Assembly: GCA_037176705.1 (NCBI GenBank)
Contig: JBAWUJ010000061.1
Span: forward strand, 124,001 to 188,000
Length of the DNA stretch: 64,000 nucleotides
Direction of reading: 5' to 3'
From: Molossus alvarezi
Lineage: Eukaryota; Chordata; Mammalia; Chiroptera; Molossidae
Every line of letters begins with the position of its first letter. Within the stretch, counting starts at the first letter, position 1. The notes under the pieces are model-generated. The model saw nothing but the letters and a program-made list of their open reading frames with translations, was not told where the DNA came from and searched no databases. Shown here piece by piece: positions 14,080-63,024 of this stretch. Both the position numbers and the translations under genes were made by a program.

Positions 14080-14290
14080 GTAAGCGATCCTGTGCAACAC
14101 AGCAGGGACTGTGCGATCCAGTTACCCACAGGTCCTGCGGGGTGCTAAATCACCAGAGCGGCCTGTGTGACCCAGCTGTTAACAAGATATTTATATAGGA
14201 TGTGAAAATGGAGACAAAGTGAATGGAAGCTACACAGACGATCTCCCAGGACCAAACAGAAATTACAGTGAAAATAAAGACATATCCTTG
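14080..14290 (+). mobile_element. Orphan L1 5' end with 73-bp-type monomer
   Basis: One to one and a half monomers ('cagcagggactgtgcgatcc', 'agttacccacaggtcctgcg') are followed by a linker (aacaagatatttatatagga) and then the L1 5' start 'gtgaaaatggagacaaagtg' with 'ggaagctacacagac'. The homology to the 5' end of L1 'B' stops near 14287. The rest of an L1 is absent, so only about 200 bp of the 5' end survives. Confidence 0.75.
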
Positions 14291-15352: not shown

Positions 15353-15639
15353 TAACATTTTTCAATCAGATAGAATGTTTGACAGTGTGAAGCTTCAGAA
15401 CCATATGAAAGTCAGGATTTCAGATCATTTTAGGATAATGTGCCTTAATGTGTATTCAAAATCAATTATAGCTAGAACTATGACTATTAAATATTACATG
15501 ATATAAATGTAATATACCCACACTACAACAGCACTATTGATATTTTCCAGCATGGGACACTTGAGATCTATGTTTTGCAAAGATTTAATATTTTATTTGT
15601 AATCCTCTACTATATAAAAAGTCTTTTAGAAGCCCTAGA

Positions 15640-15895
15640 GAGACTGGTGCAATCCAGCTGCCCGCCTGCAGGAACTGCAGGTTTGGGGCACCAGAGAGGC
15701 CTATGTGACCCAGCAGGGACTGTGCCATCTAAATACCAGTGGAACCTGCGGGATACTGAAGCACCAGAGAGGTATGTGTGACCCAGCAGCACATAATATA
15801 GGCATAGAGCTTGGTTTCTAAAGGCACTGTGAAATCCAGTTACCTGCAAAACATGCAGGATTCAGGGACATCAAAAAGGCCTGTGGGACCCAACT
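15640..15895 (+). repeat. L1 'B' 5' monomers (about 3.5 copies of a 73-bp unit)
   Basis: Units show 'gcaccagagaggcctatgtg', 'acccagcagggactgtgcca' and 'gaagcaccagagaggtatgt'. They are the same unit as the large array at 29357-32710. The last unit passes into the L1 5' start through the same linker seen at 14170-14195, which argues that the monomers belong to the L1. Confidence 0.82.
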
Positions 15896-16702
15896 GCACT
15901 CAAGATAGGCATAGAGAATGTGAAAATGGAGGTGGAGTGAATAGAAGCTACAAAGAAGATGTTTCAAAACCAAATGGGAATTAATACTAAATTAAAGACA
16001 AATCCTCAGAAAAAAAGCAACAGAAAAGCAGTAGGACTGGACCATATAACCAGGGGCACTGGTAAGATCTGTGAGGGCATGAGAGGGTTGTGGGCTGGGA
16101 GCTCATGGTCAGCAGCAGCTTAGCTGTGAGCAGCATCCTTGGGGAGTAAAGACCAAGGCCATTCCACAAACCAGATAACCAAGACAGAGCACTAAAATAG
16201 CCACAGACATTCAACTGGGGGCTATGGCAGAGGGAGGGCAAACAGGGCTGAAACTCTGTGAGGCCACCCAGGATTTGGAGGGCACTCAATTTTTGCTGAG
16301 TTTTGGCCACAAATGAAGGTGGCCTGTGTGCTCCTTTCCAGAGCTCTGGACAAAAGCAGCAGCCCTCTCCTCAGAGATTCAGCCTTTCCCAGGTGAGGCA
16401 AATAAATGCAAATTGAGGCTCATTAACAACCAGCATGTATCCCACACTCTGGATATTCTCTTATGCAGAACACCAGAGTTACATTCCAAGGCACTGGGTA
16501 ACTGAGATTATGGAAATAGCTAGAGGATAACTGAACCTTTTCTGGACTTGCAAATCTACCCAGGAAAGTAAAACAAGACAGTGGTGTTTAACATGGGCCC
16601 ACTCAGGCTCATCCAAACCCAGTAGAGGGAGCCACAAATGACAGAACACCAACACCCACAGGAAAAACTTGGAAGGCTTTAAATGCCAATGAGATAGCCA
16701 AA

Positions 16703-17595
16703 ATGGTGAACCAAATCCCAAATAAAAGAACAAGAGAACTTTATCGAAGATGAGATAAATGAAATGCAGCTAAGCAAATTACCAGAGGTAGAGTTCAGAG
16801 CCATAATCTAGAGAAAGCTCAACAGCATGAGTGAGGAAATCATCACCATGAGTATAAATATAGAAACATAGAAAACCAATCAAGGGGAAGGAAATGAAGA
16901 ATGACATAGGAGAAATAAAGAACACATTGAAAGGACTAACCAGCAGAGTAGAGGAAGCTGAGGACCGGATCAGTGAATTAGAAGACAAGGTAGAAAAAAT
17001 CAGCCAGTCAGAAAACCAAATAGAAAAAACAATTAAAAAACAGAAAAACAGCTTAAGAGAACTCTGAGACAATTGGAAACATAATAACATTCGGATCATG
17101 GTAGTCCCTGAAGACGAAGAAAATGGGCAAGTGTTTGAGAATATATTTGAAGAAATAGTGAGAGAAAACTTTCTTAACTTGGTTAAGGAAGAAGGCATTC
17201 GAGTTCAGGAAGCATAGAGATACCCAACTAAGAAGAACCCAAATAGGCCCAAACCAAGACACAGAATAATTAAAGTGCCAAAAATTAAAGACAAAGAGAG
17301 AATCCTAAAGGCAGCAAGAGATAAGCAACAGGTTACCTACAAAGAAAACCCTATAAGGCCCTGAGCTGACTTCTCAACAGAATCACTACTGCCCAGAAGG
17401 GAGTGGCATAAAGTAGTCAAGGTGACGACAAACAAGGATTTGAATCCAAGACTACTCTATCAAGCAAGGCTATCATTCAAAATAGAAGATCAAATAAAGA
17501 GCATTCCAGAAAAAAATTTTTAAAAAAGCTATGGGAATATAATAACACCAAATCAGGGCTGCAAGATATGCTAAAAGGCCTGCTGTCATTAGTAG
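16703..17595 (+). pseudogene. L1 'B' ORF1 remnant
   Basis: Starts with 'atggtgaaccaaatcccaaa', aligning to ORF1 of element A. The coiled-coil and RRM regions are recognisable around 16920-17130 and the C-terminal region up to about 17590. Numerous stops are visible, the original terminator has mutated to TCA, and several frames are used. Confidence 0.85.
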
Positions 17596-17633
17596 AAGAA
17601 ATAGGAAGAAAAATAGAACCACACTAAACAAAA

Positions 17634-20600
17634 ATGGAAATAAATATGTACATATAAATTATCACCTTAAATGTGAATGGTTTGAGTGCTCTGATAAAAA
17701 GACACAGAGTAACTGACAACATCAGAAAGCATGACTCAAATATATGTTCTTAACAAGAGAGCCTCCGCAGAACAAAAGACTCACATAGGTTGATAGTGAA
17801 GGGATGGAACAAAATCTTTCAAGCAAACAGAAGGCAAAAAAAAAAAAAAAAATCTGGGGTAGCAATACTTATATCTGATAAAGTAGATTTTAAAATGAAG
17901 GCCATACATTGAGACAAATAAGACCACTACATAATATTGAAAGGATCTATCCAAAAGAAAGATATAACCTTGGTAATCATATATACACCCAATTTAGAAG
18001 AACCAACATCTGTTAAAAGTATTTTGGAGGACTTAAAAGGAGAAATCAACAGCAATACAATCATAGCAGGGAACTGCAATACCCTGCTGACATCATTGTA
18101 TAGATCTTCTAGACAAATGATTATCAAGAAAACCCAGACTCTAAATGAAGTGCTAGATCAAATGGATTTAATATATATATACAGAGAATTACACCCAAAA
18201 CTGCAGAATTCACATTTCTCTCAAGTGTACATGGGACATTCTCAAAGATAGACCCCATGTTCCACGTTAGGGCACAAACTAAGTCTCTACAAGTTCAAGA
18301 AAATTGAAATCATATCAAGCATCTTCACAGATCACAATGGCATGAAACTAGAAATCAATTCAATAAGAACATTCAAACACATTTGAAAACATGGAGGCTA
18401 AATAGCATGTTGTTGATCATTGAATGGGTTACTGTGGAGATCAAGGAGAAAATTAAGAACTTCCTAGAAACCAATAAAAATCAACACAGAAAAACACAAA
18501 ATCTATGGCATGCAGAGAAAGTAGTTCTGAGAGGGAAGTTCATAGCACTACAGGCCTCCTCAAGAAGCAAGAAAAAATTCTAATTAACTATCTATCCTCA
18601 CCACTTATAGACTAAAAAGCAAACAGAAAGAAAACCCCAGAGCAAGTAGAAGGAAGGAAATAGTAAAGATCAGAGCAGAAATAAATGACATGGAGACCAA
18701 AAAGCAATTCAAAGACTCAATGAAACAAAGAGCTGGTTCTTTGAAAAGATAAAGAAGATTGATGGACCATTAGGTAGACTCACCAGAAAACAAAGAGAGA
18801 TAACCCAAATACACAAAATCAGAAATGAAAGAGGAAAAGTAACAACTGACACCACAAAAATATAAAGTGATCGTTAAAAACTGCCACAAATAATTATATG
18901 GCAACATATTTGACTAAGCAAAATTGACAAATTTCTAGAAACACGTGTTCTCTCAAAACTGAACCTAGACAAAAGCGAAAACTTGAACAGACCAATAACA
19001 ACAAAAGAAATTGAAGAGGTAATCAAGACTCTCCCAGCAAACAAAAGCCCAGGCACGGACTGCTTCATGGGGGAATTTTACCAAACATTCAAAGAAGAAC
19101 TAATACCCGTTCTCCTCAAACTACTTCAAAAAATTCAAGAAGGCCCTGGCCAGTTTGGCTCAGTGGTTAGAGCATCAACCCGCAGTCCAGAGAGACCAGG
19201 GTTCGGTTCCCGCTAAGGGCACGTACCTCGGTTGCAGTTTGTCCCCGGCCGTGGTTGGGTTGTGTGGATGGCAACCACTCGATGTGTCCCTTTCACATCG
19301 ATGTTTCTCTCTGTGTGTCTCCCTCCCACTCTATCTGAACAAAAAATGAAAAAAATGTTTTTGGTTGAGGATAAAAAAACAAAAACAAACAAAAAATTCA
19401 AGAAGAATAAATACTTCCAAACTCGTTTTATGAGGCCAGCATAATTTGCATTCCAAAACAGAAAGAAAGAAAAGTACAGACCAATATATCTGATGAACAC
19501 AGATGCCAAAATTCTTAACAAAATACTAGTAAATCTAATCCAGAAATACATCAAACAAATTATTTACCATGACCAAGTGGGATTCATTTCAGGGATGCAA
19601 GGCTGGTACAATATGTGGAAATCAACAAATGTGATACACCACATAAACAAAAAGAAAGATAAAAATCATAGGAACATATCAATAGACGCTGAAAAAGCAT
19701 TCAACAAAATCCAGCACCAATTTCTGATAAAATGCAGAGCAATCTGGGAATAGAGGGATACTATCTTGACATAATAAAGGCCATAGATGAAAGACCTACA
19801 GCCAACGTCATATTCAATTGGCAAAAATTAAATACATTTACCTTAAGAACAGAAACAAGACAAGGATGCCCAATTTCACCACTCTTATTTAACATAGTAC
19901 TGGAAGTCTTAGCCACAGATATCAGATTGGAAGAAAAAAAAAAATAGATCAAAATTGGAGAGGAGAAAGTAAAACTGTCATTATTTGCAAATGAAATGAT
20001 ATTATACGTAGAAACCCCCAAAGATTCCATCAAAAATTTACTACATTTAATAAATGAATTTGAAAAAGTAGCAGGATACAAAATTAATGTCAAGAAATCA
20101 AATGCATTCTTATACACCAATAATGAACTCACAGAAAGAGAAACTTAAGAAATAAACCCATTTACCATCACGGCAAAAAAATTAAGATACCTAGGAATAA
20201 ATTTAATCAAATAAATAAAAAACCTATTCTCACAAAACTACAGGTCATTGAAAAAAGAAATATAGATAGATATAAAAAAGTGAAAGCACATACTTTGTTT
20301 ATGGATTGGAAGAATTAACATCATTAAAATGTTCATACTAGCCAAAGCAATCTATAGATTCAATGCAATCCCCATTAAAATACCAACAACACACATCAAA
20401 GAACTAGAACAAATACTTCAAAAGTTCACATGGACCAAAAAAGGCCTTGAATAGATACAGCAATCTTGAAAAAAAAAAAAAAAGAACAAAGTTATAGGGA
20501 TCACATTACCAGACTTCGGATTATACTAAAAAGCCACTGCAATCAAAACAACCATGTACTGGCACAAGAACAGGCAGAAAGATCAATAGAACATAATAGA

Positions 20601-21678
20601 GAACCCAGAAATATGCCCAATTAATATTTGACAAAGGTGGCAAGAGCATGCAGTGGAGTAAAGACAACCTTTTTAATAAATGGTGTTGGGAAAATTGGAC
20701 AGCTACATGCAAAAAAATTGAAATTAGACCATCAACTTACACCATATGGAAGAATAAACTCAAAATGGATAAAAGACTTTAATGTGACCTTAATGTAATC
20801 CATAAAAATTCTAGAAGAATTGTTTGTTAGGCAACAAAATTTCAAACATCATGCACAGCAGAATTTTCACTGATACATTACCTAAGGCAACAGAAACAAA
20901 GAAGAACATGAACACATGGGACTACATCCAACTCAAAAGCTTCTGTACAGCAAAAGATACAATCATCAAAATGGAAAGGAAACACTTTGTATGGGAGAGC
21001 ATAATTGGCAATAATGTGTCAGAGAGTCCTCATACAACTCAACCAAAGGAAGACAAAGAACCCAATTAAAAAATGGGTGTTAGTAACTAAATAGACACCT
21101 CTCCAAATAGGACATACAAATGGCTAAGAAATATATAAAGAAATGCTCAACATCACTAATCATCAGAGAGATGCAAATTAAAACAACATGCTCACTCCTG
21201 TCAGCATTGCTCCCATCAACAAATCATCAAACAACAAGTGTTGGCAAGGATGTGGTGAAAAGGGACTCTACAATAATGCTGGTGGGAATGCAGACTGGTG
21301 CAGCCACTATGGGAAACACTATGGTGTTACCTCAAAAGTTAAAAATTGAACTGTCATTTGACCTAGTGATCCCAATTCTAGGAACATACCCTAAGAAGCC
21401 TGAAACACCAATCAGAAAGAATATATGTACCCCCATGTTCATAGCAGCACCATTTATAATAGTTAAGGTTGGGAAATAGCCCCAAATGTCTATCAGTAGA
21501 CAAATGAATAAAATACCTGTGGTACATATACACAATTGAGTACTATGCACCTGTAAGAAATAAAGATCACTTATCCTTTGAGATGACATGGAGGGACATG
21601 GAAATTATTATCCTGAGTGAAACAAGACAAAAGAGAAAGAAAAAATATCACATGATCTCACTTATTTGTGGAATATAA
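17634..21678 (+). pseudogene. L1 'B' ORF2 remnant, catalytic motif FANE
   Basis: The ATG at 17634 (atggaaataaatatgtac) matches the ORF2 start of element A. Endonuclease fragments are at 17937-18251. The RT core is at 19493-20130 but the catalytic FADD reads FANE (19984-19995), losing both metal-binding aspartates. The C-terminal region and cysteine motif lie near 21240, and the TAA is at 21676-21678. The frame is broken repeatedly and by the SINE at 19143-19389. Confidence 0.87.
19143..19389 (+). mobile_element. Ves-type SINE with 16-bp target-site duplication
   Basis: Flanked by perfect 16-bp copies of 'caaaaaattcaagaag' (19127-19142 and 19390-19405). It has the head 'gccctggccagtttggctca', B-box 'ggttcggttcc', 'cgatgtgtccctttcacatc' and an A-rich tail. 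It inserted into the RT-encoding part of L1 'B' and is among the best preserved SINEs here. Confidence 0.96.
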
Positions 21679-21935
21679 TGAATATAACAGTGTGGGAATG
21701 GGGTAGACCCAAAGATGTGGAAGTGAATGTGGAAGACTGACAATCCCCAGAAGAGAAGTTGGGGGAGAGAGATAAACCACAGAACTTATGTGTATGTATG
21801 CATGAACAATGGATCATGAATGGCACACCCATGGATGGCATGAGGAAGTATCGGGAGGTGGGACTCAGTGGGGGGAAAAGGAGAAATATCTGTAACAAAA
21901 ATAAATAAATTAATTTTAAAAGAAATAAACAAAAA

Positions 21936-22380
21936 ATAAATTACTTAATGATGTACTCACCAGCAGCACTAACAACTATTTGTCAAAGGGGCACGCTGAA
22001 CCCACACACGCTTTGCAGGCATATTCTCCATGGCTAGCTCCATCAGGTGCTCAAAAAAAACAACTTCCCAGTGTGCAACGGTCGCTCTGACTGGCCTCAG
22101 ACACTGAGCCTCAAGCATTATGGACAAATCAGGAGGCAACCACAGTTGAAAAAGGATGACATTCCCTTGACTGGTGCCACATTATAGTGTCTCTTGGCCT
22201 CAATTGAGCCTTGGCAGGGCCAGAATAAAGTAAGGGGAAACTTTGAAGGCCCCAAAATTATCTGTCCTATTAAGAAACTTTGACTGATCAACAATTATGC
22301 TTAGTGGTGGTCTGGGCCCTGAGGGAAAAACACAGGAGAAATCAAGGTCCCTGACTGCTAAGAGGCTGATAAGGAATCAA
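21936..22380. other. Single-copy-like sequence between L1 'B' and duplication copy B
   Basis: About 445 bp with no recognisable gene or repeat. In copy A the corresponding position is occupied by L1 'A', so this may be the sequence that flanked the L1 'A' target on its far side. Confidence 0.5.
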
Positions 22381-26891: not shown

Positions 26892-29356
26892 GGAGCCCAG
26901 GTGCTGAGCACTCCATGGAGGTTTGTTGCACCTGTGAATGTCCTTTCCTAAAGAACTGTAGGAAAAAAGTCTCCAGTCAAAGGGGAGGTACTGTAGGGTA
27001 GGAGCGAGCAGGAAGGAGGGTGGATAAAGGAAACTGGGAGACCTTAGTGCCCACAGAGTACAAGCAGGTTCAGGTGCTCAGAGCACTTAAACTTTCCTGG
27101 GCCACTGGAGAAGGAACCAGTTGATTCTTCAAATTTCTGCAGTAGTGCTTCTTGTCCTTTTGGTACTTCCCTGGTCTCCCCGCTAATCTGAACAATGTCC
27201 TACGCTCCGGTGCCCTATTTATTGTTGTGCTATCAATTCAGTCTCTTTCCTCATTTTGCATCCCCCATCAGTGTGCTTATGCCAAGCCCACAATGGTGAC
27301 AGTGTGACCAGGCTGTGGAGGTCAATAAGTCTTGGGGAATAAAGTGAAACATGACTCAGAAGAAGCGCTTCCTTCCTGAGGACACTGAGAGTCAGAAGAT
27401 ACCTTTATGGGCACGTGTGATTTGGCTGTGTTTGCGTGCCAAGGAACACTCCATGTTTGGAACTGCACAGGACAGAATGTGCAATATGGCTAGCTTGGAC
27501 AGGCCATACCTAAAATGTGCCCCTGTGCCAGCCATGCTAAGGCATTCTGGATGGTCTCTCACTCATGTTAAAAGGAAGAGAAAGAAATAGCCTGTGGAAA
27601 TTTTACAGTGCAAATGTCCCACATCTTGACATTGACCTAAATGAATTAATGAAGAAGCATGCAAGCTTTTTTTCTTTTTTGTGTTGTTTCTATCAGAGGA
27701 AATGCAGTAGTGTTGAGTAGATGATCTCACAAAAGCTGTAGAATGGGCAACTCCTGAAATTTCCACATGGGGTCAAATGCCTGCAGGTGTATCAGAAGCT
27801 GGAAAGCACCTGATTGAATAATAACACTGCAGAATATTCTGACCCAGTGATGCCATGGTAGCAAGCCAGAGAGAGCTCTTACAGCACTGCTCTGAAAATG
27901 TCATGGAACCTGAAAATGTGTAGAAACGTAGATTTAGAGGAGACATGGATATCTTCAGATGCCTAAGAAAGGATCGTACAAGAGGTTGGACCACAGTGTT
28001 TGAGACTATTTTTTCACCAGAACGGATGTCCATGGCTAAAGGGAGAGGTGTTTCCATTACTGAGCAAGTCTTCGTAATGGAGCTGTCCTGTCCCTGGCTG
28101 TGTGGATCGGCTAGTTAGAGCACAGAGGTTTCACTCTTACATCCAATTTCGCTCGGTCATCTGGGTGGATCTCTCTCAACCTTCTCCTGGGAAATATCTA
28201 TGACATAGTAAAAGGACTGGGGCCTATTACCACACAGATGAACTCTTTTCTGCACTGGAGACACTTTCTGGCTGTCGCTGACCCCACCTCGGGTGGGGGC
28301 ATGCGTGAGGCACACAGGGGCAAGGGCACACCACAAAGAGCACAGAAACCAAAGGCAGAGCAAACTAGGGAAACAAGAGGAAGCAGGAGTCTTTTCCTTG
28401 TCCGGGTTCCCTGAGCTTTGCACTCTGCTAGGATGGAGGATCAGGGCCATCCCGACACAGCCTGCCCATGTCTGTACCTTGGACCTCAGCTACCAGATGT
28501 GCCAGGAGAAGCTCTAATGCCCAGGAAACTAGCCCTGTCTGTCTCCCAGGGTCACTGAGGATCAGGGGCAGAGTGAGGCAGAAAACTACTAGACTGGGAA
28601 AGGGCGGGTAGATGCAGTGTGAACAGCAGGCATCGCAGGAAGGCCAGTGGTGTGGAGGGAGGATGGCCTTCCCCAGGGATTCTGGGCTCCTGGTGAGAAG
28701 GAGGCAGCCTCCCCTCAGGGTGCGGTTGTGTGGGGTGATGCCCACTGAGCAGGATCACTGGGGAAGACTTTTCACTGTTGCTGGACAGGCAAATAAACTA
28801 TGTTCTTTAGTGGTTTCCTGTACACTTCAACCTCTCGTGGGTGTTATGCTACTCATTGTGTCCAAGGCTTCATTGCTTTGACACAGGTTGGCCTTTGTCC
28901 CTTGTATATGACTCACGGATGCAGGCTGCTGCACTGCACGCCTACTGATATTTACCCAAGACTGCACACACTCCTTGCTGTGTAAAGACAACCCTCTTAG
29001 GAAGTAGTCCTGCACACTTCTTTGCAAGCCGGCCCCACAGAGAAAGGTTGACACTCCCTGTAAAGTTTTCTACTTCACACAACCCTGTCTGGGTCTTTAG
29101 CAATCATGCCTACCTGAAAAGGACATCTCTCTTCTGTCACGCCCATGGCAGGTACATGAGAACATGGACACATGAGCAATTGCTCAAGCCCAAGGAAGCA
29201 AAAACTTATGTGTCACAAGCTGCCATCAGGCTCCTGTTCTCCAGGTTTGCACACAGTCTGTCACCTGACCAGAGTACAGGACTGGTCATCAAACATCAGT
29301 TCAGTACTTCCCTTCTTCCCCTATATATTATCCTGAAAGAAGGAACAAAAGCCAAA
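26892..29356. other. Single-copy-like region downstream of the TSPY-like pseudogene
   Basis: About 2.46 kb with no L1, SINE or Ves sequence, which is unusual for this window. I see no exon I can assign. AATAAA at 27338-27343 could be the old polyadenylation signal of the TSPY-like gene, 450 bp after its stop. A frame around 27850-28070 looks weakly coding (RGDMDIFRCLRKDRTRGW) but contains a stop and is not recognised. It may be 3' flank belonging to the same ancestral TSPY unit. Confidence 0.45.
27338..27343 (+). promoter_or_regulatory. Candidate polyadenylation signal AATAAA
   Basis: A canonical hexamer 447 bp beyond the stop of the TSPY-like pseudogene, in sense orientation and in non-repetitive sequence. 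No GT-rich downstream element was verified. The assignment to this gene is only positional. Confidence 0.3.
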
Positions 29357-32300
29357 GAACTGTACAATATAGTTACCCACAGGTCTTGGGGGGTTCTAAA
29401 ACAAAGAGAGGCCTGTGAGACCAAGCAGGGGCTACAAGATCTAGTTACCCACTGGGCCAGTAGAGTGCTGAAGCACCAGAGAGGCTGGCTCAACCCGGCA
29501 GCAACTGTGCCATCCAGTTACCCGTGGGAACTTTGGGGTGCTCAAGCACCAGAGAGGCCTGTGAGACATAGCAGGGACTGTGAGGTTCAGTTACTCATGG
29601 GACATGAAGGGGGCTGAAGCACCAGAGACCTGTGTGACCCAGCAGGGACTGTGCCATTGAGTTACCCATGGGACCTGAAGGGTCCTGAAGCATGAGAGAG
29701 GCCTGTGCAACCAAGCAGGCACTGCACAATCTCGATTCCCATGAGCCATGTGGGGTGCTGAAGCCCAAGTGAGGTCTGCTTAACCTAGCAGGGACTGTGC
29801 CATCCAATTACCCATGGAACCTGTCAGGTGCTGAAGCTCCAGAGTCCTGCTTAACCCAGCAGGGACTGTGCCATCCAGTTATTCGAGGGATCTGCGGGGG
29901 GCTGAAGCACCAGAGAGGCTTGTGCAACCCAGCAGGTATGGCACAATCTACTTACCCACAGGCCCGCAGGGTGCTGAAGCACCAGAGGACAGCAAAAACC
30001 AGCAGGGACTGTGTCATATGGTTACTACGGGGTCTGTGCCATCCAATTACCCACAGGGCATGCCAGTTGCTGATGAACCAGAGGCCTGTGCAACCCAGCA
30101 TGGTCTGCGCAATCTAGTTACCCACAGGACTGCAGGGTGCTGAAGCACCAGAGAAGCCTGTGCCACCTAGCAGGGACTGTGCCATCTAATTACCTGCGGG
30201 TCATGTGGGGTGCAGAAGTAACAGAGAGGCCTGTGTGACCCAGGACGGACTGTGCGATCTAATTACCAAAGGGATTTGAGGGGTGCTGAAGCACCAGAGA
30301 GGCCTGCGGAACTAAGCTGGGACTGTGCTATCTGGGTATCCATAGGAACTGCAGGGTGCTGAAGCACCAGAGAGGCATGTGTGACCAAGCAGGGACTGTG
30401 CCATTTAATTACCGGTAGGACCTGAGGGGTTCGAAAGCACCAGAGAGGTCTGTGTGGCCAGTAGGACAGTGCAATCTAGTTACCCACAGCCTGAAAGGGG
30501 CTAAAGCAACAGAGGCCTGCACAACGCAACAGTGACTGTGTGAACTAGTTCCCCCACACTAACCAAGAAGTAATAAAGCACCATAGAGGCCTGTGCACCC
30601 AGTAGGAATTGTGCCATCCAGTTACCGCGGGACCTACAAGGTGCTGAAGTACCAGAGAGGCTTGTGCGACCCAACCTGGACTGTGAGATCTAGTTACCCA
30701 TGGAAACTGCAGAGTGCTAATGCAACAGAGAGGCCAGTGCAACACAACAGAGACTTCCCAACCTAGTTACCCATGGGTCTTCAGGCTTCTGAACACCACA
30801 GGCATGTGTGAACTAGTTACCCGTGGGAACTATGGCGTGCTAAAACACTGGAGAGGCATGTGCACCAATCAGGGACTGTGGCATCCAGTTACCCGTGGGA
30901 CCTGCGGGGTGCTGAAGCACCAAAAAAGCCTGTCCAACCTAGCATGGACTGTGCAATCCATTTACTCTCAGGAAGTGAGGGGTGCTGAAGCACCAGAGAG
31001 GCCAGTGCAACCCAGCAGGGATTGCCTGACCTAGTTACCCATGGGGCTTACACACTGCTGAAGCACCTGAAGTCTGTGAGACCAACAAGAGACTGTGCAA
31101 TCAAGTGACCCGAGGGAACTATGGGGTGTTAAAACACCAGAGAGGTCTGTGCAACCCAGCAGGAAATGTGTTGTCTAGGTACCCATTGTGCCCACGGGCT
31201 GCTGAAGCACCACAAAGGCCTGAGCAACCCAGCAGGGACTATGCCATCCAGTTACCATCTAAAACTGAGGGTGCTGAAGCACCAGAGAGGGCTGTGTGAC
31301 CTACCAGGTACTGTGCCATCAAATTTCCCACAGGACATGCATGGTGCTGAAGCACCAGAGAGGCCTGTGAGACCCAGCAGGGACTGTGTGATCTAGTTAC
31401 ACACGTGACCTGTGGGGTCCTTAAGCATCAGAGAGGACTGTGCCACCTACCAGGGACTGTGCCATCCAATTACCCACAGGAATTGCGGGGTGCTGAAGCA
31501 CCACAGAGGCCTGTGCAACCCAGCAGCAACTGTGCAATCTAGTTACACTCGAGAACTGTGGGGTGCTAAAACAACATAGAGGCCTGTGCTATACAGCAGG
31601 GACTGTGAGATCTACTTACTCACATGCCTGCATGGTCCTGAAGCAACAGAGTCCTGTGCGACCCAGCAGGAACTGTGCCATCAGGTTACCAGCCACACCT
31701 GCAGGCTGCAGAAGCTCCAGAGAAGCCAGTGCAACCAAGCAGGGACAGTGCCATCCAATAGCTTGTGCAACTTGTGAGCTGCAGAAGCACTAGGGAGGCC
31801 TGTGCAACCCAGCAGACATTGCACAATCTAGTTTCGCATGAAGCTGGTGGGATGCTGAAGCACCATAGAGCCCTGTGCTACACAGCAAGGACTGTGCCAT
31901 CCATTTACATGTGGGAACTGTGTGCTGCCAAAACACCAGATCGTCCTGTAAGACCCAGCAGGAACTGCATAATCTAGTTACCCACGAGAACTGCAGGGTG
32001 CTAGTACACCAGTTAGGCCTGTGTGACTCAGTAGGGACTATGGCATCTCATTACCTGAAGATATGCAGCATGATAAAATACCAGAGACACCTGTGTGACC
32101 CATCAGAGCCTGCGCGATCTAGTGCCAGCATGGGGCTGAAGAACCTGAACCTGCATTATCCAGCAGGGACTGTGCCATCAGGTTACCTACAAGACCTGCG
32201 GGCAGCTAAAACACCAGAGAGGCCTTTGCTCTCAGCAGACACTGCCTGACCTAGTTACCCATGGGTCTGCAGGGTGCTGAAGCACCAGAGGCCTGTGGGA

Positions 32301-32710
32301 CCTAGCAGAGACTTTGCGAACTAGTTACCCATGGGAACTATGGGGTGGGAAACACCGGAGAGGCCTGTGAACTCAGCAGTGACTGTTCCATCTAGTTACC
32401 CGACGGTCCTCTGGGGTGCTGAAGCGCCAGAGAGGCCGGTGCAAACCACCAGGGACTGCATGATCGAGGTACCCTTTGGGCCTGTGTGCTGCTGAAGCAC
32501 TATAAAGGCCGGTGAAACCCAGCAGGGACTGTGCCATCCAGTTACCCACATGACCTATAAGGTGCTGAAGCACAGGAGAGGTCTGTGCAACCCAGCAGAG
32601 ACTGCACGATCTAGTTATCCATGGGGTCCATGGGGTGCTGAAGCACCAGAGAGGCCTGCAGAACCCAGCAGGGACGGTGTGATCTAGGTACCCACTGGGC
32701 CTGTGGGCTG
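29357..32710 (+). repeat. Tandem array of about 46 copies of a 73-bp unit
   Basis: The unit can be written as 'ggtgctgaagcaccagagag', 'gcctgtgcaacccagcaggg', 'actgtgccatccagttaccc' and 'atgggacctgcgg'. Successive units start about 73 bp apart across 3354 bp, with substitutions and small indels. Each unit holds a near-perfect inverted repeat, GGTGCT-ga-AGCACC. The same unit sits directly upstream of the L1 5' start at 14080 and 15640. The array is joined on the right, at 'gctatttacaatag', to a truncated L1 3' end. On the left it follows single-copy-like sequence. Frames that stay open in it are by-products of periodicity. Confidence 0.93.
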
Positions 32711-33176
32711 CTATTTACAATAGCCTAGATCTAGAAACAACCCAAATGCCCATTAGTAGACTCATGGATAAAAAAGTTGTGGTACATATACAAAATGGAG
32801 TACTAAGCAGGTATAATAAAGAGAGATCTCTTATCCTTTGAGATGACATGGAGGGACTTGGAAAGTATTATCCTAAGTAAACAAGCCAAACAGAAAAAGA
32901 CAAGTTTCATATAATCTCACTTATTTGTAGAATATAATAAACATAGCAGTCTGAGGAATGGGGTAGTCCCAGAGACATGGAAGTGGGGTACAGACAGGCA
33001 ATCGCCAGAAGATGGTGTGGTGGGGGAGAGATAAACCACAGATCTTATTTGCATGTATGCATGAAAAATAAACATGTTCAACAAATCTGGAGACAGGGCA
33101 GGGAGGGAGCCAGAAGGGGGAATCAGTGGGGGGAAATGGAGAAACATCTGTAACAAAAATAAATTAATTAATTAAG
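32711..33176 (+). mobile_element. 5'-truncated L1 3' end, sense
   Basis: Starts inside the ORF2 C-terminal region (tatttacaatagcctagatc), continues to the ORF2 end near 32940 and the 3'UTR, and ends with 'aataaattaattaattaa'. Its 5' edge is fused to the 73-bp array. Confidence 0.9.
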
Positions 33177-33187
33177 GAGAAAAAAAT

Positions 33188-33490
33188 AGCCAGAAGATCT
33201 AAATAGTCACTTCTCCAAACAAGATATACAAATGGCCAAAAGATATATGAAAAAATGTTCAATGTCACTAATCATCAGAGAGGTGCAAATTAAAACAACT
33301 ATGAGGTGTCACCTCACACCTACCAGAAGGGCTGCCATCAATAAATTATCAAAAAACAAGTGCTGAAGAGGGTGTTGTGAAAAGGCACTCTAGTACACTG
33401 CTGGTAGGAATGCAGACCGGTGAAGCCACTATGGAAAACCATGTGGTGTTACCTCAAAATTTTAAAATTGAACTGCCATTTGACCCTGTG
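33188..33490 (+). mobile_element. Internal L1 ORF2 fragment, sense, older
   Basis: Matches the ORF2 segment from just before the cysteine motif (counterpart of residues SKQDIQMAK) to about 30 codons after it. It lies upstream in ORF2 relative to the preceding fragment, so it is a different copy. The motif C...C...H.C is partly lost. Confidence 0.85.
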
Positions 33491-33765
33491 TGTGAAATAG
33501 TCTCTGTATGAAATATGATTATTTAGGGAATGCTATATATATTTATAAATGAGCTAAGATGGTAGAAGCGTTGTAAGTGAAAGAAAAATTTTGAGGACAT
33601 TTCCAAAAACTCATTTTGAGGTAGACCTGAGAGAGTATGAGGCATCCACAGAAGGCAGGTGGAATTTCTAAAAAAAATTAATTAAAAAAAAAAAAAGACT
33701 TGAGCCCACATATCTGTCATTCACACATACCTGGCAGCATTCCTGGGGCTCAGAGGCCTAGTCAG
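33491..33765. other. Unassigned sequence with A-rich tract
   Basis: About 275 bp. A run 'aaaaaaaattaattaaaaaaaaaaaaa' (33670-33696, broken by TTAATT) may be a retroposon tail, but I recognise no body upstream of it. Confidence 0.4.
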
Positions 33766-33839
33766 CCCACCTCCCCAGTCTCCAGCAGGATGGAGCTGCA
33801 CCTGTCTGGGTTGGCCATGTGCACATCCCACAGACAGGT

Positions 33840-34340
33840 ACTTCTGCAGACCCAGCTCCTGGCCCCGCCCCCTGCCTCGTGCGTGTCCCCGCCCACGGGC
33901 CACGCCTTCTGCGTGGACGCCATCTTGGCGTGAGGAGCCACCATTTTGTTCTTGGAGAGACTTCTGGAAACACCATCGTCCTATCTTCCTCTGGCAGTGG
34001 AGGCTGCGTCAAGGCCGAGGCTGGATTCAGAGCCAGGTAAGTGGGGTGGGTTCAGGACCAGTGGTGGTGAGGGCTTGGGGGGAACAGGTGCTGGGGCAGG
34101 AAGCTGGGATCGGCACCTCGGGGACAGACGGACCTCGCCCTGCCGCCGCCCCTCCTCCCTCCACTGGAGTCCGGGCCCACGGCCGGGTGTGGTGCGAGCC
34201 CTGGGGTCCCCTGTCCTGGCGCCCGAGGGAGAGGGTGCAGAGCCCTAGTTATGGGCCCTGCAGCTGGGCCGCTCAGAACACAGCCCTGGAGCCCGGCTGT
34301 CAGCGACCCTCAGGCTGACAGCCCGGATTTTCATGTGGTC
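33840..34340 (+). promoter_or_regulatory. CpG-rich promoter-like segment
   Basis: The only CpG-dense stretch in the window. It holds GC boxes ('ccccgccccctg' near 33864, 'ccccgcccacgg' near 33888) and a YY1-type site 'gacgccatcttggcg' (about 33917), followed by 'gccaccattttgttc'. A strong donor GTAAGT starts at 34037. The layout is that of a housekeeping-type promoter with a non-coding first exon. Which gene it belonged to is not visible, because from 34375 on only L1 sequence follows. Confidence 0.6.
33930..34036 (+). other. Candidate non-coding first exon with consensus splice donor
   Basis: Sequence from the YY1-type site to 'gattcagagccag' followed by 'gtaagtgggg'. The donor matches the consensus at all of CAG|GTAAGT. 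There is no ATG in a useful frame, so it would be a 5'UTR exon. The exon start is a guess from motif spacing. No downstream exon was found in the window. Confidence 0.4.
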
Positions 34341-34352
34341 TCCTGTGTGCGG

Positions 34353-34369
34353 GGTGTGTGTGTGTGTGA
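34353..34369. repeat. Short (GT)n microsatellite
   Basis: About eight GT dinucleotides directly before the L1-derived region. Confidence 0.8.
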
Positions 34370-34374
34370 TTCTT

Positions 34375-34574
34375 TAAATTTATTTTTTTTTAAATTACAG
34401 TTGACATACTATAGTATGTTAGTTTAAGATGTATGTCAAAGTGATTAGCTGTTGATATACCCATCTTGCACCAGACATAGTCATTTTTATATTATTGACT
34501 GTATTCCCTATGCTACACTTTATTCCTGTGACTATTTTTACTGGGCAGGTACTGTGGAACTTTATTATTCTTTA
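34375..34574 (-). mobile_element. Old L1 3' end (L1M-like), antisense
   Basis: 'aaattacagttgacatacta', 'gtatgttagtttaagatgta' and 'ttgactgtattccctatgct' resemble the 3' end of ancient mammalian L1M families rather than the young bat L1s around it. The younger L1 begins at about 34575. Family assignment is from memory of the motif. Confidence 0.55.
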
Positions 34575-46897: not shown

Positions 46898-47870
46898 TTT
46901 GGCTATTATAGTGGGCTTTGGAGTCTGCCAAATTTTCCTTGTGGGTGTTGGTGTTCTGTTGTTTGTGGCTCCCTCTCCTGGGTTTGGATGAGGCTGGGAA
47001 GACCCACTTTAAACACCAGTGTCAAGTCTTAACATTCCTGGTTAGAGTTGCTAGCCCAGGCAATCGTAGTTATCATCTAGTTTTTTTCTGAAGGTATTTG
47101 TAGTGGTCACCTGAAGAACCTTGGTTTCTGAGTTGAATGAAATACTCCCTCATATGCTCAGTGTAGGAGGATTTCCTGAGGATGGGGCAGATGCTGGCTG
47201 ATAATGGGCCTCAATTAGCACTTCAATGGCTACCTGGTGGGTTTGAATCTTTGAGGGAGGGGCCTTTGCCTCTCTTCAGGGCCCTGGGAAGGAGTCAGAT
47301 GACCAGAGTCCTGAGTGGTTGCACTCAGCAAAAGCTCTGAGCACCCTCCAAATCCTGAGTATCCCCACACAGTTCCAGTCCCATCTGCCCTCCCTCTGCC
47401 AGATCCCAAGGTGAGTGCCTGCTGCCAATTTAGTCTCTGTGTGGGCTTTGCACTGTGGAGCGACCTGAGACTTTAACCTAAGGGCTCAACTCCCAGCTAA
47501 GTGTAGGTGAGGCTGCAACAGCTCCCAGTCAAGGGCGTAGCACCAAGCAGAAGTCACAGGATCCAGCAGAGGCCACTGATCCCAGCTTAGGAAGCTGCAG
47601 GTTCCAGCCTAGGCCACATATCCCAGGCAAGGGCGCAGCTTCCAGCTGAGGCCGCTGGTCCCAGCTAAGCCCACAAGTTTCAACCTAGACCGCTTCATGT
47701 GCCAGCTGAGGCCGCAGAAGGTCCCAGCCAGGGCCGCAGGTCCCAGATGGGGTTTTAGCAGGTCCCAACCAGGGCCACAGGTCCACGCCGAGGCTGCTGC
47801 AGGTCCCAGCCCAGGACAATGGCCTCCCAGGCCCCTCTGGCATCCTCGCAAGCCTACCAGGGTTGAATCA

Positions 47871-55688: not shown

Positions 55689-56520
55689 TTCGGCTATCAC
55701 AGTGGGCTTTGGAGTGTGCCAAATTTTCCCTGTGGGTGTTGTTGTTCTGCTGTTGGTCACTCCCTCTCCTGGGTTTGGATGAGCCAGGGAGGACCCACTT
55801 TAAACACCACTGTCAAGTCTTAGCTTTTCTGGTTAGTGTTGCTAACCAAGGTAATGGTAGTTATCCTCTAGCGTTTTTTGCCTGGAGGCTATTAGTAGTG
55901 GTCACTTGAAGAACCTTGATTTCTCATTTGCCTGAATAACTCCCCCTGGTCCTGAGTGTAAGATGATTTCCTGAAGGTGGGGCAGCTGCTGCTTGTTAAT
56001 GCGCTTCAGTTAGCATTTCAGTGGCCACCAGGTGGTGTTGAATCTCTGGGGGAGGGGCCCCCTCTCCCCTGGGCCCTGGGAAGGAGTAAAATGACCACAG
56101 TCTTGCTTGGCTGCACATAGCAAAAGCTCTGAGCATCCTCCAAAACCCCAGTGACCCCCACAGTTCCAGTACATTCTGTCTTTCCTGTGCCGGAGCCCAA
56201 GGTCAATGGCTGCTGCCAATTTATTTTGTGTCTAGACTCTGCGTCTTCAAGCCACCTGGGACTTTTAACCCAAGGGCGCTGCTTCCGGCCATGGGCGGCC
56301 ACGGCTCTCACCCCAGCTAAGGGCATCACACTCAGCAGAAGCGACAGAACTAAGCCACAGTAGCGAGACACTACCGAGGTAGCAGCAGCTTCCAGCAGAG
56401 TCCCCAGGTCCCAGCGAGTCTGTGCAGCACCAGCTGAGGGCTTAGCAGGCAGCAGAGTTCCCAGGACTCAGCCGGGGTCACAGCCAAGGCGGCAGCAGCT
56501 TCCCGCTGAGTCCCCTTATC

Positions 56521-57060: not shown

Positions 57061-57272
57061 CCAGATGTTTGAGTTTTCCCCCACTGATTCCTCCCTCCCC
57101 TCCCTCCCCAACCTCTCCCCAGCTTTGTTATCCATGTCTGCTTTTCAGGCATACATGGATATAAGTTCTGTGGTTTATATCTCTTCCCCCCACCCCCTCT
57201 CCTGGGAGTAGTCAGTTTGTACCCCATTTCTACGTCTTTGGGACTACCCCATTCCTCAGACTGTTATGTTTA

Positions 57273-60200
57273 TTATATTCTGCAAATAAGTGAGATCATA
57301 TGATACTTGTCTTTTTCTGATGGATTTGTTTCACTTAGGATGACACTTTCCAGGTCCCTCCATGTCATCTCAAAATATAAGAAATCATTCTTTCTTACTG
57401 CTGCATAGTACTTTATTGTGTATATGTACCACAGTTTTTTGTTTGTTTGTTTTTTATGCATTCATCTACTGTGGGACATTTTGGCTGTTTCCAGATTTTA
57501 ACTATATTATATAGTGCTACTACGAACATGGGTAGGGTATATTCCTAGAAGTGGGATCATTGAGTCAAATGGAAGTTCAATTTTTAATTTTTTGAGGGAA
57601 CACCATATTGTTTTCTATAGTGGCTGCACCAGTCTGCATTCCCTCCAGCAGTGTACGAGGGTCCCCTTTCTCCACACCGTCGCCAATACTTGTTGATGAC
57701 GGTCATTCTGACAATTGGGAGGGTATAACTCATTGTTGTTTTAATTTGCATCTCTCTGATGATTAGTGATGTTGAGCATTTCTTCATATATCTTTTAGCC
57801 ATTAGTATGTTCTGTTTGGAGGGGTATCTATTTAGTTCATCTGCCCATTTTTTAATTGGGTTCTTTGTCTTCCTTTTGTTGAGTTTTATGAGCACTTTTT
57901 ATATATTGGAAATTAAATCCTTATCTGATATATCATTGGCATTTATGCTCTCCCATATACTGGGTAGCCTTTCCATTTTAATGATTTTATCTTTTGCTGT
58001 GCAGAAGCTTTTGAGTTTGATGTAGTTTCATGTGTTCATTTTCTCCTTTGTTTCTGTTGCAGTGAAAATGGTGCTGCAATTGATGTCTGAAATTTTGTTG
58101 GCTACAGTACCTTCTAGGGTTTTTATAGATTCATGAGTCACATTTAAATCTTATATTTGTTTTGAGTTTATTGTTGTGTAGGGTGTAAGTTGATGGTCTA
58201 GTTTCATTTTATGGCATGTAGCTGTCCAATTTTTCCAACACCATTTATTAAAGAGGCTATCTTTATTCCACTGTATGCTCTTGCCACCTTTGTAAAATAT
58301 TAATTTAGCATATTGCCTTGGGTCCATTACTGGGTTGTCTGTTCTGTTCCCCTGGTCTATATGCCTGTTATTGTTCTAGTACCAGGCTGTTTTGATTCTA
58401 GTAGCATTGTAGTATAGCCTACAATCTGGTAATGTGATCCCTTCTACTTTGTTCTTCTTTTTCAAGATTGCTGTGGCTATTCGAGGTCTTTTTTTGGTTC
58501 CACATGAACTCTTAAAGTATTTGTTCTAGTTGTGTGAAGTATGTCATTGGTATTTTCATGGGGATTGCATTGAATCTATAGATTGCTTTGGGTAATATGG
58601 ACATTTTAATGATGTTAATTCTTCCAATCCATGAACAAGTTATGTGCTTCCACTTTTTTATATCTTCCTCTATTTTTTCTTTCAATGACCTGTAGTTTTC
58701 TGTGAATAAGTCCTTTATTTTTTGGTTAAGTATATTCCTAGGTATCTTAATTTTTTTTTGCCACAACTTCATGTATGCAATACCCCAGTTGAGAATGCAC
58801 ATCCTAAATTTAATCATAAGGAAATGTAAGACAAACACAAAATAATAAACTTTTTCAAAGGAAGGGGCTCTTTCTTTAAAATATGTCACTGTCATAAAAG
58901 GTGGAGAAAGATTGCACGATAAGGAGTCTTAGAGCACATGACCACTAAATGAGACACCTGATCCTAGACTGGATCCAATAGTGGAAAGAGGAAAGTATTA
59001 TTAATACAGATTTGATTTTAGGATAGTATAGTCTCTCTATTCTTAGGAATATGGTAAATGTGACTGTTTTCTTAGTTTCTCTTTCTGTGAGGTAATCATT
59101 GGTGTATAAGAATGCCATCGATTTCTTGACGTTAATTTTGTATCCTGCTACTTGCCACGTTTATTTATTAAGTCTAGTAAAATTTTGATGGAGTCTTTGG
59201 GGTTTTCTAAGTATACTATCATGCCATCTGCGAATAATGACTGTTTTATTTCCTCCTTTCCAATTTGGACTTTTTAAAATGTTTTCTTCATGTCTAATAG
59301 CTGTGGCTAAGACTTTTAGTACTAGGTTCAATAAGAGTGGTGAGAGTGGGCATCCCTCTCTTGTTCCTGTTCTTAAAGGAAATATTTTTTGTTTTTGCCC
59401 ATTGAGTATGATGTTGGCTGTAGGTCTTTGATATATGGCCTTGATATGTCTAGATATGATCCCTCTATTCCTACATTGCTATGTGTTTTATCAGACATGG
59501 ATGTTGGATTTTGTCTAATGCTTTTTTGGCATCTATTGATATGATTATGTGGTTTTTATTCTTCATTTTTTTATGTGGTGTATCACATTTATTGATTTGG
59601 GAATATTGTACCATCCTTGAATCCCTGGAATGTGTTCTACCTGGTCAAAATGAATACTTTTTTTGATGTGTTGCTGGATCAGATTTGCTAGTATTTTGTT
59701 CAGGATTTTGGCATCTATGTTCATCAGGTTTATCGGCCTGTCGTTTTCTTATTTTGTAATGTCTTTTTCTGGTTTCGGAATTAGAATCATGTTGGCCTGA
59801 TAAAACTATTTTGGAAGTCTTCCTTCTTCTTGAATTTTTTGAAGTAGTTTCAGGAGAATAGGTGTTATTTCTTCTTTGAATGTTCGGTAAAACTCCCCCA
59901 TAAAACCTTACGGGCCTAGGCTTTTGTTTCTGGGAGAGTCTAGATTACATCGTCAATTTCTTTTGTTGTTATTGTTCTGTTCAAGTTTTCTATCTCTTCC
60001 AGGTCCAGTTTAGGGAGACTATCTGTCTGTAGAAGTTTGTCCATTTTACTTAAATGGCAAATTTGTTGCCATAAAATTTTTCATAGTAGTTGTTAACAAT
60101 CTTCTGTATTTCTGTGGTATCAGTTACTTCTCTTTCATTTCTGATTTTGTGTATTTGGGATCTCTCACTTTGTTTTTTGGTGAGTCTAGCTAAGGGTTCC

Positions 60201-61271
60201 TCAATCTTGTTTATCTTTTTGAGAAACCAGCTCTTTGTTTCATTGATCTATTGAATTGTTTTTTTTGGACTCTATGTCATTTTTTTCTGTTCTGATCTTT
60301 GCTGTTTCCTTCCTTCTTCTTGGTCTAGAGTTTTCTTTTTGTTTGCTTTCTAGTTCTTTAAGTTGTGAGGGTAGGTAGTATATAAGAGATTTTTTTTGCT
60401 TCTTGAGGTAAGCCTGTAGTGCTATGAACTTCTTCCCTTTCAGAACTGCTTTTGCTCTATCCCATAGATTTTGTGTTGTTGTGTGTTCATTTTCATTGGA
60501 TTCCAGGAAGTTTTTAATTTCTTTCTTGATCTCCTCATTAATCCATTTATTGTTTAATAACATGCTATTTAGCTTCCATGTGTTCAAAAGTCTTTGCATG
60601 CTCTTGTTGCAGTTGATTTCTAGTTTCATGCCATTGTGATCTGAGAAGGTGCTTGATATGATTTTACTCTTCTTAAACTCGTAGAGACCTAGTTTGTGTC
60701 CTAACATGTGGTCTATCTTTGAGAATGTCCCATGGGCACTTGAGAAGAATGTGAATTCTGCAGTTTTGTGGTGTATTTTTCTATAGATATCTATTAGAAC
60801 CATTGGGTCTAGTGCTTCATTTAGAGTCTCTGTTACCTTGCTAATTTTTTGTCTAGAGGATCTATCCAGTGATGTCAGTGGGGTGTTGAAGTCCCCTGTT
60901 ATGATTGTGTTGCTATCGATTTCTCCTTTGAAGTCTTCCAGAAGATTTTTTATATATTTTGGTGCTCCTATATTGGGTGCATATATGTTTATCACTGTTA
61001 TATCTTCCTGATGGATAGATCTTTTCAATATTATGTAATGGTCTTCTTTATCTCTAGTTATCGTCTCCAATTTGAATTCTATTTTGAAAGAGATGAGTAT
61101 TGCTACCCCATCTTTTTTTCTTTTTTTTTTTCCGTTTGCTTGGAAGATTTTTTTCCATCCCTTCACTTTACACTTATGTGAGTCTTTTGTTGTGAGGTGC
61201 GTCTCTTGTAAACAACATATAGATGAATCATGCATTCTTATCCAATCAGCTACTCTGTGTCTTGTTGCCAT
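57273..61271 (-). pseudogene. L1 copy 10 ORF2 remnant, endonuclease open, RT dead
   Basis: The N-terminal 343 codons (60240-61271) are open and contain [26 protein letters not shown] and [10 protein letters not shown]. The start joins MAT to RHRVADW: 57 nt that normally encode the first strand with LNVNGLN are missing in frame. The RT box has FADG instead of FADD, losing a metal ligand. Stops and frameshifts are numerous after 60240, and a 284-bp insert interrupts it at 58767. Confidence 0.87.
58767..59050 (+). other. 284-bp non-L1 insert in L1 copy 10
   Basis: The L1 reads 'tttttttttgccacaa' before and 'tggtaaatgtgact' after, where other copies run straight through (gccgcaatggtaaatga). The insert has no poly(A) and no target-site duplication. 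Internal motifs such as 'cctgatcctagactggatcc' recall the 3' region of ancient L1M or related repeats, but that is a weak impression. Confidence 0.75.
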
Positions 61272-61316
61272 TTTTGTTTAGTGTGGTTATATTTTTCTTC
61301 CTATTTCTTCTACTAA

Positions 61317-62199
61317 TTACAGCAGTCCTTTTAACATTTCTTGCAGTGCTGGTTTGGTGCTAATGTATTCCCTTAGCTTTTTTTTTTTTTTTTTTGGTCT
61401 GGAAGGCTCTTTATTTAACCTTGTATTTTGAATGATAGCCTTGCTGGGTAGAGTAGTCTTGGATTCAGATCCTTGGTTTTCATGACCTTGGTTACCTCAG
61501 GCCATTCCCTTCTGGCCTGTAATGTTTCTGTTGCGAAGTCAGCTGAGAGCCTGATGGGGATTCCTTTGAAGGTAGCCTGTTGCTTTTCTCTTGCTGCTTT
61601 TAGGATTCTCTTTGTCTTTAATTTTCGGCTCTTTGATTACTATGTGTCTTGGTGTGGGCCGGTTTGGGTTCTTCTTACTTGGGGCTCTCTGTGCTTCTTG
61701 AACTTGAATGCCTTTTTCTTTAACCAAATTAGGGAAGTTTTCTGTCACTATTTTTTCAAATATATTCTCAAATCCTTGCTCATTTTCTTCTTCAGGGATT
61801 CCTATTATGTGAACTCCTATTACATTTCCAGTTGTCCCACACTTCTCTTAAGCTGTCTTCCTGTTTTTTAACTATTTTTTTTCATGGGTTGTTTTTTTCT
61901 ACCCTATCTTCTAATTCACTGATCCAGTCCTCAGCTTTCTCTACTCTGCTATATGTTTTCTTATTTCCATACGTCATTTTTCATTTCTTCTTGGTGGTTT
62001 TTAATTTCCAACTGGTTGATTTTCAACATTTCTATGTCTTTACTCATGGTGCTCATGCCTTACACATGCTGTTGAACTTCCTCAAGATCATGGCTCTGAG
62101 TTCTAGCTCTGTTAACTTGCTTAACTGAAGTTCATTTATCTCCTCTTTGGTGGATGTCTCTTGTTCTTTCATTTTGCTTTTGTTTCTCTGTTTGACCAT
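61317..62199 (-). pseudogene. L1 copy 10 ORF1 remnant
   Basis: The start codon is at 62197-62199 and the TAA at 61317-61319. The segment 61539-61748 encodes NFPNLVKEKGIQVQEAQR and NPNRPTPRHIVIK. Small deletions in the coiled coil (around 61950) break the frame. Confidence 0.83.
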
Positions 62200-63024
62200 T
62201 TTGGTTATCACAGTGGGCTTTGGAGCCTGCCAATATCTCCTTGTGGGTGTTGGTATTCTGTTGTTTTTGGTTCCCTCTCCTGGGTTTCAATGAGTCAGGG
62301 TGAACACACTTTACACACCACTGTCTTACTTTCCTGGTTAAAGTTACTAACCCAGGGAATGGTACAGTAATCCTCTAGCTTTTTGCCTGGAGGATATCAG
62401 TAGCATATGTCTAAAGAACCTTGACTTCTCAGTTGAATGAAAAACTCCCTCAGGTGCTCAGCATAAGGGGATTTCCTGAGGTGAGGCAGATGTTGGTTGT
62501 TAATGGACCTCAATTAACATTTCAGTGGCCACCTTGTGTGTTGAATCTCTGAGGGAGGGTCCACCACCTCTTCCCAGGGCCCTGGAGAGGAGTAAGATGA
62601 CTACAGTTCTGCATCGCTGCACTCAGCAAAAGCTCTGAACACCCTCCAAATCCCAAGTGTCCCCACACAGTTCCAGTCCAGTCTGTGCTGCCTCTGCCAG
62701 AGCCCAAGGTAAGTGACTGTGGCACTTTGAGCCTCCACCCAGGTTCTGAGTCATGGAGCCACCTGGGAGTTTAACCCGAGGGCGCTGGTCACAACTAAGC
62801 CTGCTTCTCCTAGCTAATGCCGCGGCCTATGGTGGGCTCCCAGCCACCCTCTCGTGAATCCGCAAGTCTACCAGAATTTAGTCAGTGTCCCTGGTTATGA
62901 GATCCTTCAAGCTGCTTTTCTGTTGCATTTTTCTGATGATTTGTCTTTATTATTGTTGTAATACAGTTTGTCCTGGGAACTGGTCTGTGTAGCTTCCATG
63001 CACTCTGCCACCATTTTGGAGTCT

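Follow-up and report, generated by a model that had tools for sequence, protein, structure and literature searches.

The 73-bp unit described here is, with a probability that we put at roughly 0.58, the tandem promoter monomer of one type of L1 5' end, and a nearby array of 46 units is an expanded and decayed block of these monomers that has lost its L1. The array, two short runs of the unit at L1 starts, the phase that these runs have in common, and their related linkers were all seen in the sequence of the window (the whole stretch of DNA that was analyzed, 64 kb). That the units would act as promoters is suggested by analogy with mouse L1, and the sample behind this reading is just three L1 5' starts. 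For the array we claim only that it likely derives from L1 monomer units, not that it is a working L1 5' end. How L1 elements gain new promoters in mammals is an open question that has been studied mostly in mouse, rat, horse, and human; a short monomer, an inherited junction, and a nearby array of 46 units would allow a direct test of whether L1 recruits or creates tandem repeats.

The array is the largest of the features that contain the unit:

29357..32712, + strand: array of about 46 tandem 73-bp units, beginning mid-unit and ending at unit position 6 (TRF and HMM)

TRF called 73-bp arrays over most of 29391-32712, as well as multiples of this period (144-146, 217, and 289-291). Gaps between the TRF calls, such as 32004-32204, were below its threshold and are filled by HMM hits. 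Iterating the HMM on the array gave 48 hits and 46 framed units, 26 of which are exactly 73 bp, in a block of 3.36 kb. The consensus of the HMM-framed units is GGTGCTGAAGCACCAGAGAGGCCTGTGCAACCCAGCAGGGACTGTGCCATCTAGTTACCCACGGGACCTGTGG; the array units have a mean identity of 78% to this consensus and of 66% to each other. With as many as 3 mismatches allowed, a pattern of 26 bases taken from the unit matched 20 times in the window (17 times in the array and 3 times at the two L1 starts) and 0 times in each of 100 shuffles. A search for an inverted copy of the array within 28800-33700 found just one 25-nt pair at 76%. The tandem array of about 46 units that the first-pass annotation had described is confirmed, and its coordinates were right within a few bases.

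The evidence that ties the unit to L1 comes from two places upstream of the array:

14089..14176, + strand: run of 1.2 units (73-bp repeat) that stops at unit position 36 (HMM)
14177..14201, + strand: 25-bp linker TGTTAACAAGATATTTATATAGGAT, from the unit to the L1 start
14202..14288, + strand: first 87 bp of an L1 5' end (gtgaaaatgg...); the similarity to L1 ends at 14288
15634..15894, + strand: about 3 diverged units, among which the linker occurs a second time at about 15788-15809 (HMM)
15895..15919, + strand: 25-bp linker TGCACTCAAGATAGGCATAGAGAAT, from the unit to the L1 start
15920..21950, + strand: near full-length, decayed L1 with 5'UTR, ORF1, ORF2, and 3' end

When both strands of the 64 kb were searched with the HMM, just five hits outside the array had E < 1e-3, and all of them lie at 14089-14176 and 15688-15857. 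Weaker hits stretch the second run to 15629 (E = 0.003) and to 15894 (E = 0.04), and a BLAST search of the array against the window agrees with the HMM on the copies outside the array. Scans for the repeat in viral contigs and in bacterial and archaeal genomes gave 0 matches, which carries no information because bat DNA would not be expected in such collections. Each short run immediately precedes an L1 start, and runs and L1s alike are on the plus strand. The first run stops at unit position 36, and so does the second, as judged from its weak last HMM hit (E = 0.04). The linkers TGTTAACAAGATATTTATATAGGAT and TGCACTCAAGATAGGCATAGAGAAT are identical at 16 of 25 positions without gaps, and directly after each of them comes the L1 start, GTGAAAATGG. 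The linker regions of the two loci align better than any of 2,000 shuffles, whereas the 200-bp 5' flanks do not align (73% of 500 shuffles reach their score), which argues against a local duplication that carried its flanks along. The claim that the unit stands upstream of two L1 5' starts and joins them through a common linker was therefore borne out, with phase 36 and a 25-bp linker at both places. Phase and linker agree between two places with flanks that cannot be aligned, which makes it likely that the unit belongs to the L1 lineage; this similarity supports a 5' end that would have been inherited with the L1 rather than two independent insertions into a satellite.

The two runs differ in the number of units (about 1.2 at 14089 and about 3 at 15634). 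In the 15634 element, the linker is repeated among the units (15775-15809 and 15882-15916 have 83% identity over 35 bp), as if units and linker had been duplicated together.

In the L1 that follows this run, tblastn found similarity to ORF1 from 16713 and to ORF2 at 17634-21024, in that order, and its 3' end is near 21915. The query was the L1 copy at the start of the window, which contains Transposase_22 and RVT_1 (Pfam; L1 ORF1 and ORF2). A SINE was inserted at 19143-19389; we take the SINE copies in the window to resemble bat VES. At 14202-14288, an L1 5' end is present without an L1 body after 87 bp. This is unusual for L1 insertions, which normally lose their 5' end.

The window contains a third L1 5' start:

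57074..63017, - strand: L1 (probably a single element) that has the same 5'UTR body and lacks an upstream 73-bp unit

The 326 bp upstream of 63017 contain no match to the unit (score 15, with a shuffle mean of 16). The match to the linkers is also weak: a fraction of 0.02 of 2,000 shuffles reach it for one linker and 0.61 for the other. Hence the unit lies directly 5' of two of the three L1 5' starts in the window, and one of these two is the 87-bp L1 fragment.

Several positions of the unit look like decayed CpG dinucleotides. We flagged five dinucleotide positions as possible lost CpGs. The clearest are positions 62-63 (5 CG, 15 TG, and 12 CA; n = 45) and 71-72 (5 CG, 15 TG, and 10 CA; n = 46), which show the split between TG and CA of a decayed CpG. 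The other candidates are less clear: positions 28-29 (2 CG, 7 TG, and 15 CA of 42), 45-46 (2 CG, 33 TG, and 7 CA; n = 46), and 47-48 (CC in 17 of 46 units). If the five flagged CpGs are restored, the unit would have a CpG observed/expected ratio of 0.64, versus 0.14 for the majority consensus. The array's ratio today is 0.18, which is close to that of the window (0.21).

The array units differ from their consensus at 441 of 2,671 sites outside the flagged CpGs (16.5%). If the subtype positions (see below), which were picked by hand after the linkage test, are left out as well, then the divergence is 325 of 2,329 sites (14.0%). The nine L1 3' ends in the window are 8.1 to 14.1% diverged from their consensus, including 14.1% for the 15634 element and 9.8% (448 sites) for the piece beside the array; six L1 5' parts are 7.1 to 14.9% diverged (13.2% for the 15634 element). 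If rates were equal, the array would be about as old as the older L1s here.

Neighboring units of the array are no more alike than random pairs: their identity is 0.672, compared to 0.680 for permuted order. This test used 43 of the 46 units, and three misframed units were dropped. A lag of two units gives a slightly higher identity (0.692, P = 0.05), an effect that is not seen at lags of 3 to 8. The local homogenization between neighbors that is expected of satellite DNA is thus absent. The structure among the units does exceed expectation (none of 300 column shuffles had as much), and it stems from interspersed subtypes. Just one pair of sites, 7A with 10A, survives correction for 2,936 tests (P = 9.5e-6); the next pair, 48C without 52T (P = 1e-4), does not. 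Since adjacent units resemble each other no more than units far apart do, amplification of the array was probably rapid and then stopped. The pattern would fit the amplification of a few subtypes within a short time, followed by independent decay.

These results also bear on a possible, if rather doubtful, alternative, in which the satellite came first: an independent mini- or macrosatellite existed, and an L1 that inserted beside or inside the array picked up a few of the units, which then served this L1 as a new 5' end and promoter. This would account for an array that is far longer than either of the L1-borne runs, that has no L1 start attached, and that is as diverged as the L1s here or more so. 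In addition, new 5' ends have repeatedly been recruited in mammalian L1s, according to the accessible text of PMC5872511. However, a long-lived satellite that is being homogenized should have neighboring units that are more alike than distant ones, which is not what we see. Also, if the L1s had captured their units from the array, then the two L1-borne sets should share derived states. Outside CpGs, the units at 14080 differ from the array consensus at 6 of 76 sites and those of the 15634 element at 44 of 197, which makes the latter more diverged than their own L1 body. The two sets share differences from the array consensus at five positions, but four of these are CpG-flagged, and at the only other one, position 52, the shared state is present in 28% of array units. 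As far as these shared states go, they lean mildly toward an array that would have grown from L1 monomers.

An unlikely alternative is that the unit is just a minisatellite with local dispersal, in which case its two L1 neighbors would reflect a local duplication or coincidence. In its favor, all known copies are within 19 kb in one window, the piece at 14080 is tiny and just 1.5 kb from the other run, and one of the three L1 5' starts lacks the unit. But when two runs of the observed lengths were dropped at random outside the array, with the three L1 starts as targets, both of them fell within 45 bp upstream of an L1 start and on the correct strand in 1 of 200,000 trials. (The test assumes independent runs, an assumption that would not hold after a local duplication.) The same phase, the same linker length, and 5' flanks that cannot be aligned are also difficult to reconcile with coincidence.

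At its 3' end, the array meets two pieces of L1:

32713..33187, + strand: piece of an L1 3' end, abutting the array, 9.8% diverged from the consensus of the nine L1 3' ends in the window
33181..33490, + strand: piece of L1 ORF2, from further upstream in L1 than the preceding piece

Rather than leading into an L1 5' start, the array ends with a unit that breaks off at position 6 against the L1 3' piece. There is no linker or L1 start after the 3' end of the array, and its 5' flank has no similarity to the unit or to L1. A search for target-site duplications came up empty for the array, alone or together with the L1 3' piece, and for the 15634 element and the 14080 piece: the best candidates were also reached by 32 to 87% of 60 random windows. 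(The L1 of the 15634 element is 13 to 14% decayed, and none of its candidates goes beyond random windows.) Given the break at unit position 6 and the lack of a target-site duplication, the array is not the present promoter of any L1. This negative result counts against the promoter-monomer reading, in which the units would have been part of a retrotransposed copy. The L1 3' piece is probably younger than the array, if divergence is a guide, and because it looks younger (9.8%), it is probably not from the array's own L1.

We considered whether the array and the L1 3' piece could be a single insertion, either a composite retrotransposon of the SVA kind, in which a repeat array precedes a 3' end that has an A-rich tail, or an L1 that lost a large internal segment by deletion. 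The two are directly joined and on the same strand, but this is very improbable: no target-site duplication was found around the pair (although decay could have erased one), the L1 piece is diverged at 9.8% of 448 sites as against 16.5% for the array (or 14.0% without the hand-picked subtype sites), and the arrangement is known at this one locus only. The lack of a target-site duplication and the lower divergence of the L1 piece led us to disfavor the internal deletion in particular.

About 1 kb downstream of the array, 33700-34400 is richer in CpG (observed/expected ratio of 0.38 to 0.57), with a GC content of up to 0.70. This region holds a donor-like site, CAG-GTAAGT, and words that we take to be YY1-like. 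Judging from its composition and motifs, it is possible that it contains a gene promoter and first exon.

Returning to the L1 promoter monomer, which the first-pass annotation had proposed, that claim stands in part. On the positive side, the phase, linker, and strand agree at two L1 starts whose flanks cannot be aligned; the L1-borne and array units have one common consensus; and the array (16.5% or 14.0%) and the 15634 L1 (13 to 14%) are similarly diverged. We counted several results against it: the start at 63017 has no unit, the array is unattached, the L1 part of the 14080 piece is just 87 bp long, the 15634 element has units that are more diverged (44/197) than its L1 body, and the CpG ratio of the array is near that of the window, with the higher ratio of the unit coming from reconstructed CpGs.

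If the unit is an L1 promoter monomer, then an ancestral L1 lineage would have carried a few CpG-containing 73-bp units ahead of a start that has, presumably, a YY1-like motif. Each unit would have added binding sites for transcription by RNA polymerase II, and copies that retained upstream units might still have been transcribable after 5' truncation. At one locus, a short burst of unit expansion, by unequal exchange or slippage, could have produced interspersed subtypes with no local gradient of similarity. The block would later have lost its CpGs, and also the L1 body by deletion or rearrangement, and would now abut a piece of the 3' end of what is probably another L1.

This layout is likely a further instance of one that is known from the L1s of mouse, rat, and horse. 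In the mouse L1 5'UTR (types A, Tf, and Gf), tandem monomers likewise lie 5' of L1 and are joined to it by a constant nonrepeat stretch, the tether. Mouse monomers are about 200 bp, however, as compared to 73 bp for the unit here. Tandem-repeat L1 5' ends have been described in mouse, rat, and horse (PMC9022269 and PMC5872511, in the accessible parts of both). The available sections of PMC9022269 state that the number of monomers varies in mouse L1, that the monomers carry promoter activity, and that seven young mouse subfamilies average 1.5 to 3.7 monomers, with just 7 of 5,765 loci having more than 10. Because more than 10 monomers is so rare in mouse, the approximately 46 units here, with no L1 attached, would be extreme for a promoter. 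Among nonrodent placental mammals, types 1 and 3 of the L1 5'UTR in horse (a perissodactyl) also contain tandem repeats, and several nonhomologous L1 5' ends occur in that one genome, as the accessible text of PMC5872511 reports; the same text describes coexisting nonhomologous L1 5' ends in perissodactyls, mouse, and human. Type 1 of horse has 2 or 3 repeats (PMC5872511, available portion), versus about 46 in the array, and we compare them by layout, not by sequence. PROsat and the VNTR of SVA are also tandem arrays linked to a retrotransposon, a likeness that we draw from partial descriptions (PMC6947457 and PMC5753468); the present window, by contrast, yielded no composite element bounded by target-site duplications.

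Among the matches listed in the bat and megabat literature, in a search with most subscription journals outside its scope, there was no description of L1 5' repeats. In the accessible text of a paper on megabat L1 (PMC4072516), the word "monomer" does not occur and UTRs are not reconstructed, and that of PMC1764860 does not contain "UTR," "promoter," or "tandem." Judged by names only, older L1M 5' ends in Repbase could be related to the unit.

The unit was also said to contain a 14-nt inverted repeat in every copy, and this did not hold. GGTGCT-GA-AGCACC is a feature of the consensus: the exact word is present in just 10 of the 46 units, and all six arm pairs are kept in 12 of 46. We considered a maintained hairpin, as 12 fully paired units exceed the 4.7 that are expected under independence, but rejected it. 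Overall, 195 of 276 pairs are kept, which is barely above the expectation of 189.5; just 4 compensated pairs were seen; and one arm pair is disrupted by 7A with 10A, the variant with the strongest linkage. The excess of fully paired units can come from the less decayed state of some units.

Two other L1s (with similarity from 47440 and from 55872, on the minus strand) have in common another, GC-rich 5' end:

47384-47850, - strand: second type of L1 5' end, GC-rich, with 38- to 41-bp tandem repeats in this 47-kb copy
56175-56514, - strand: second type of L1 5' end, GC-rich

The two copies (47744-47384 and 56514-56175) align with a score of 211, compared to at most 82 among 200 shuffles. The start of the 56-kb copy seems to lie inside the ORF2 of another L1. 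This second type of 5' end has no similarity to the 73-bp unit above that of shuffles. A candidate for a hidden unit 5' of the 55872 L1 scored 30, above all 300 shuffles, but this is within the background of the window (99th percentile of 32). In a speculative extension that we consider doubtful, at least two unrelated tandem-repeat L1 promoters would have evolved in this bat lineage. One of them, the CpG-rich 73-bp monomer, could grow into arrays of dozens of units that persist as promoters in their own right after the L1 is gone, and such an array might be a seed for recruited L1 5' ends or a self-standing block of transcription.

Finally, a 75-bp sequence at 50171-50320 is present as a tandem duplicate. 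Given that its two copies match at 97% of positions, this duplication is probably much younger than the surrounding L1s.
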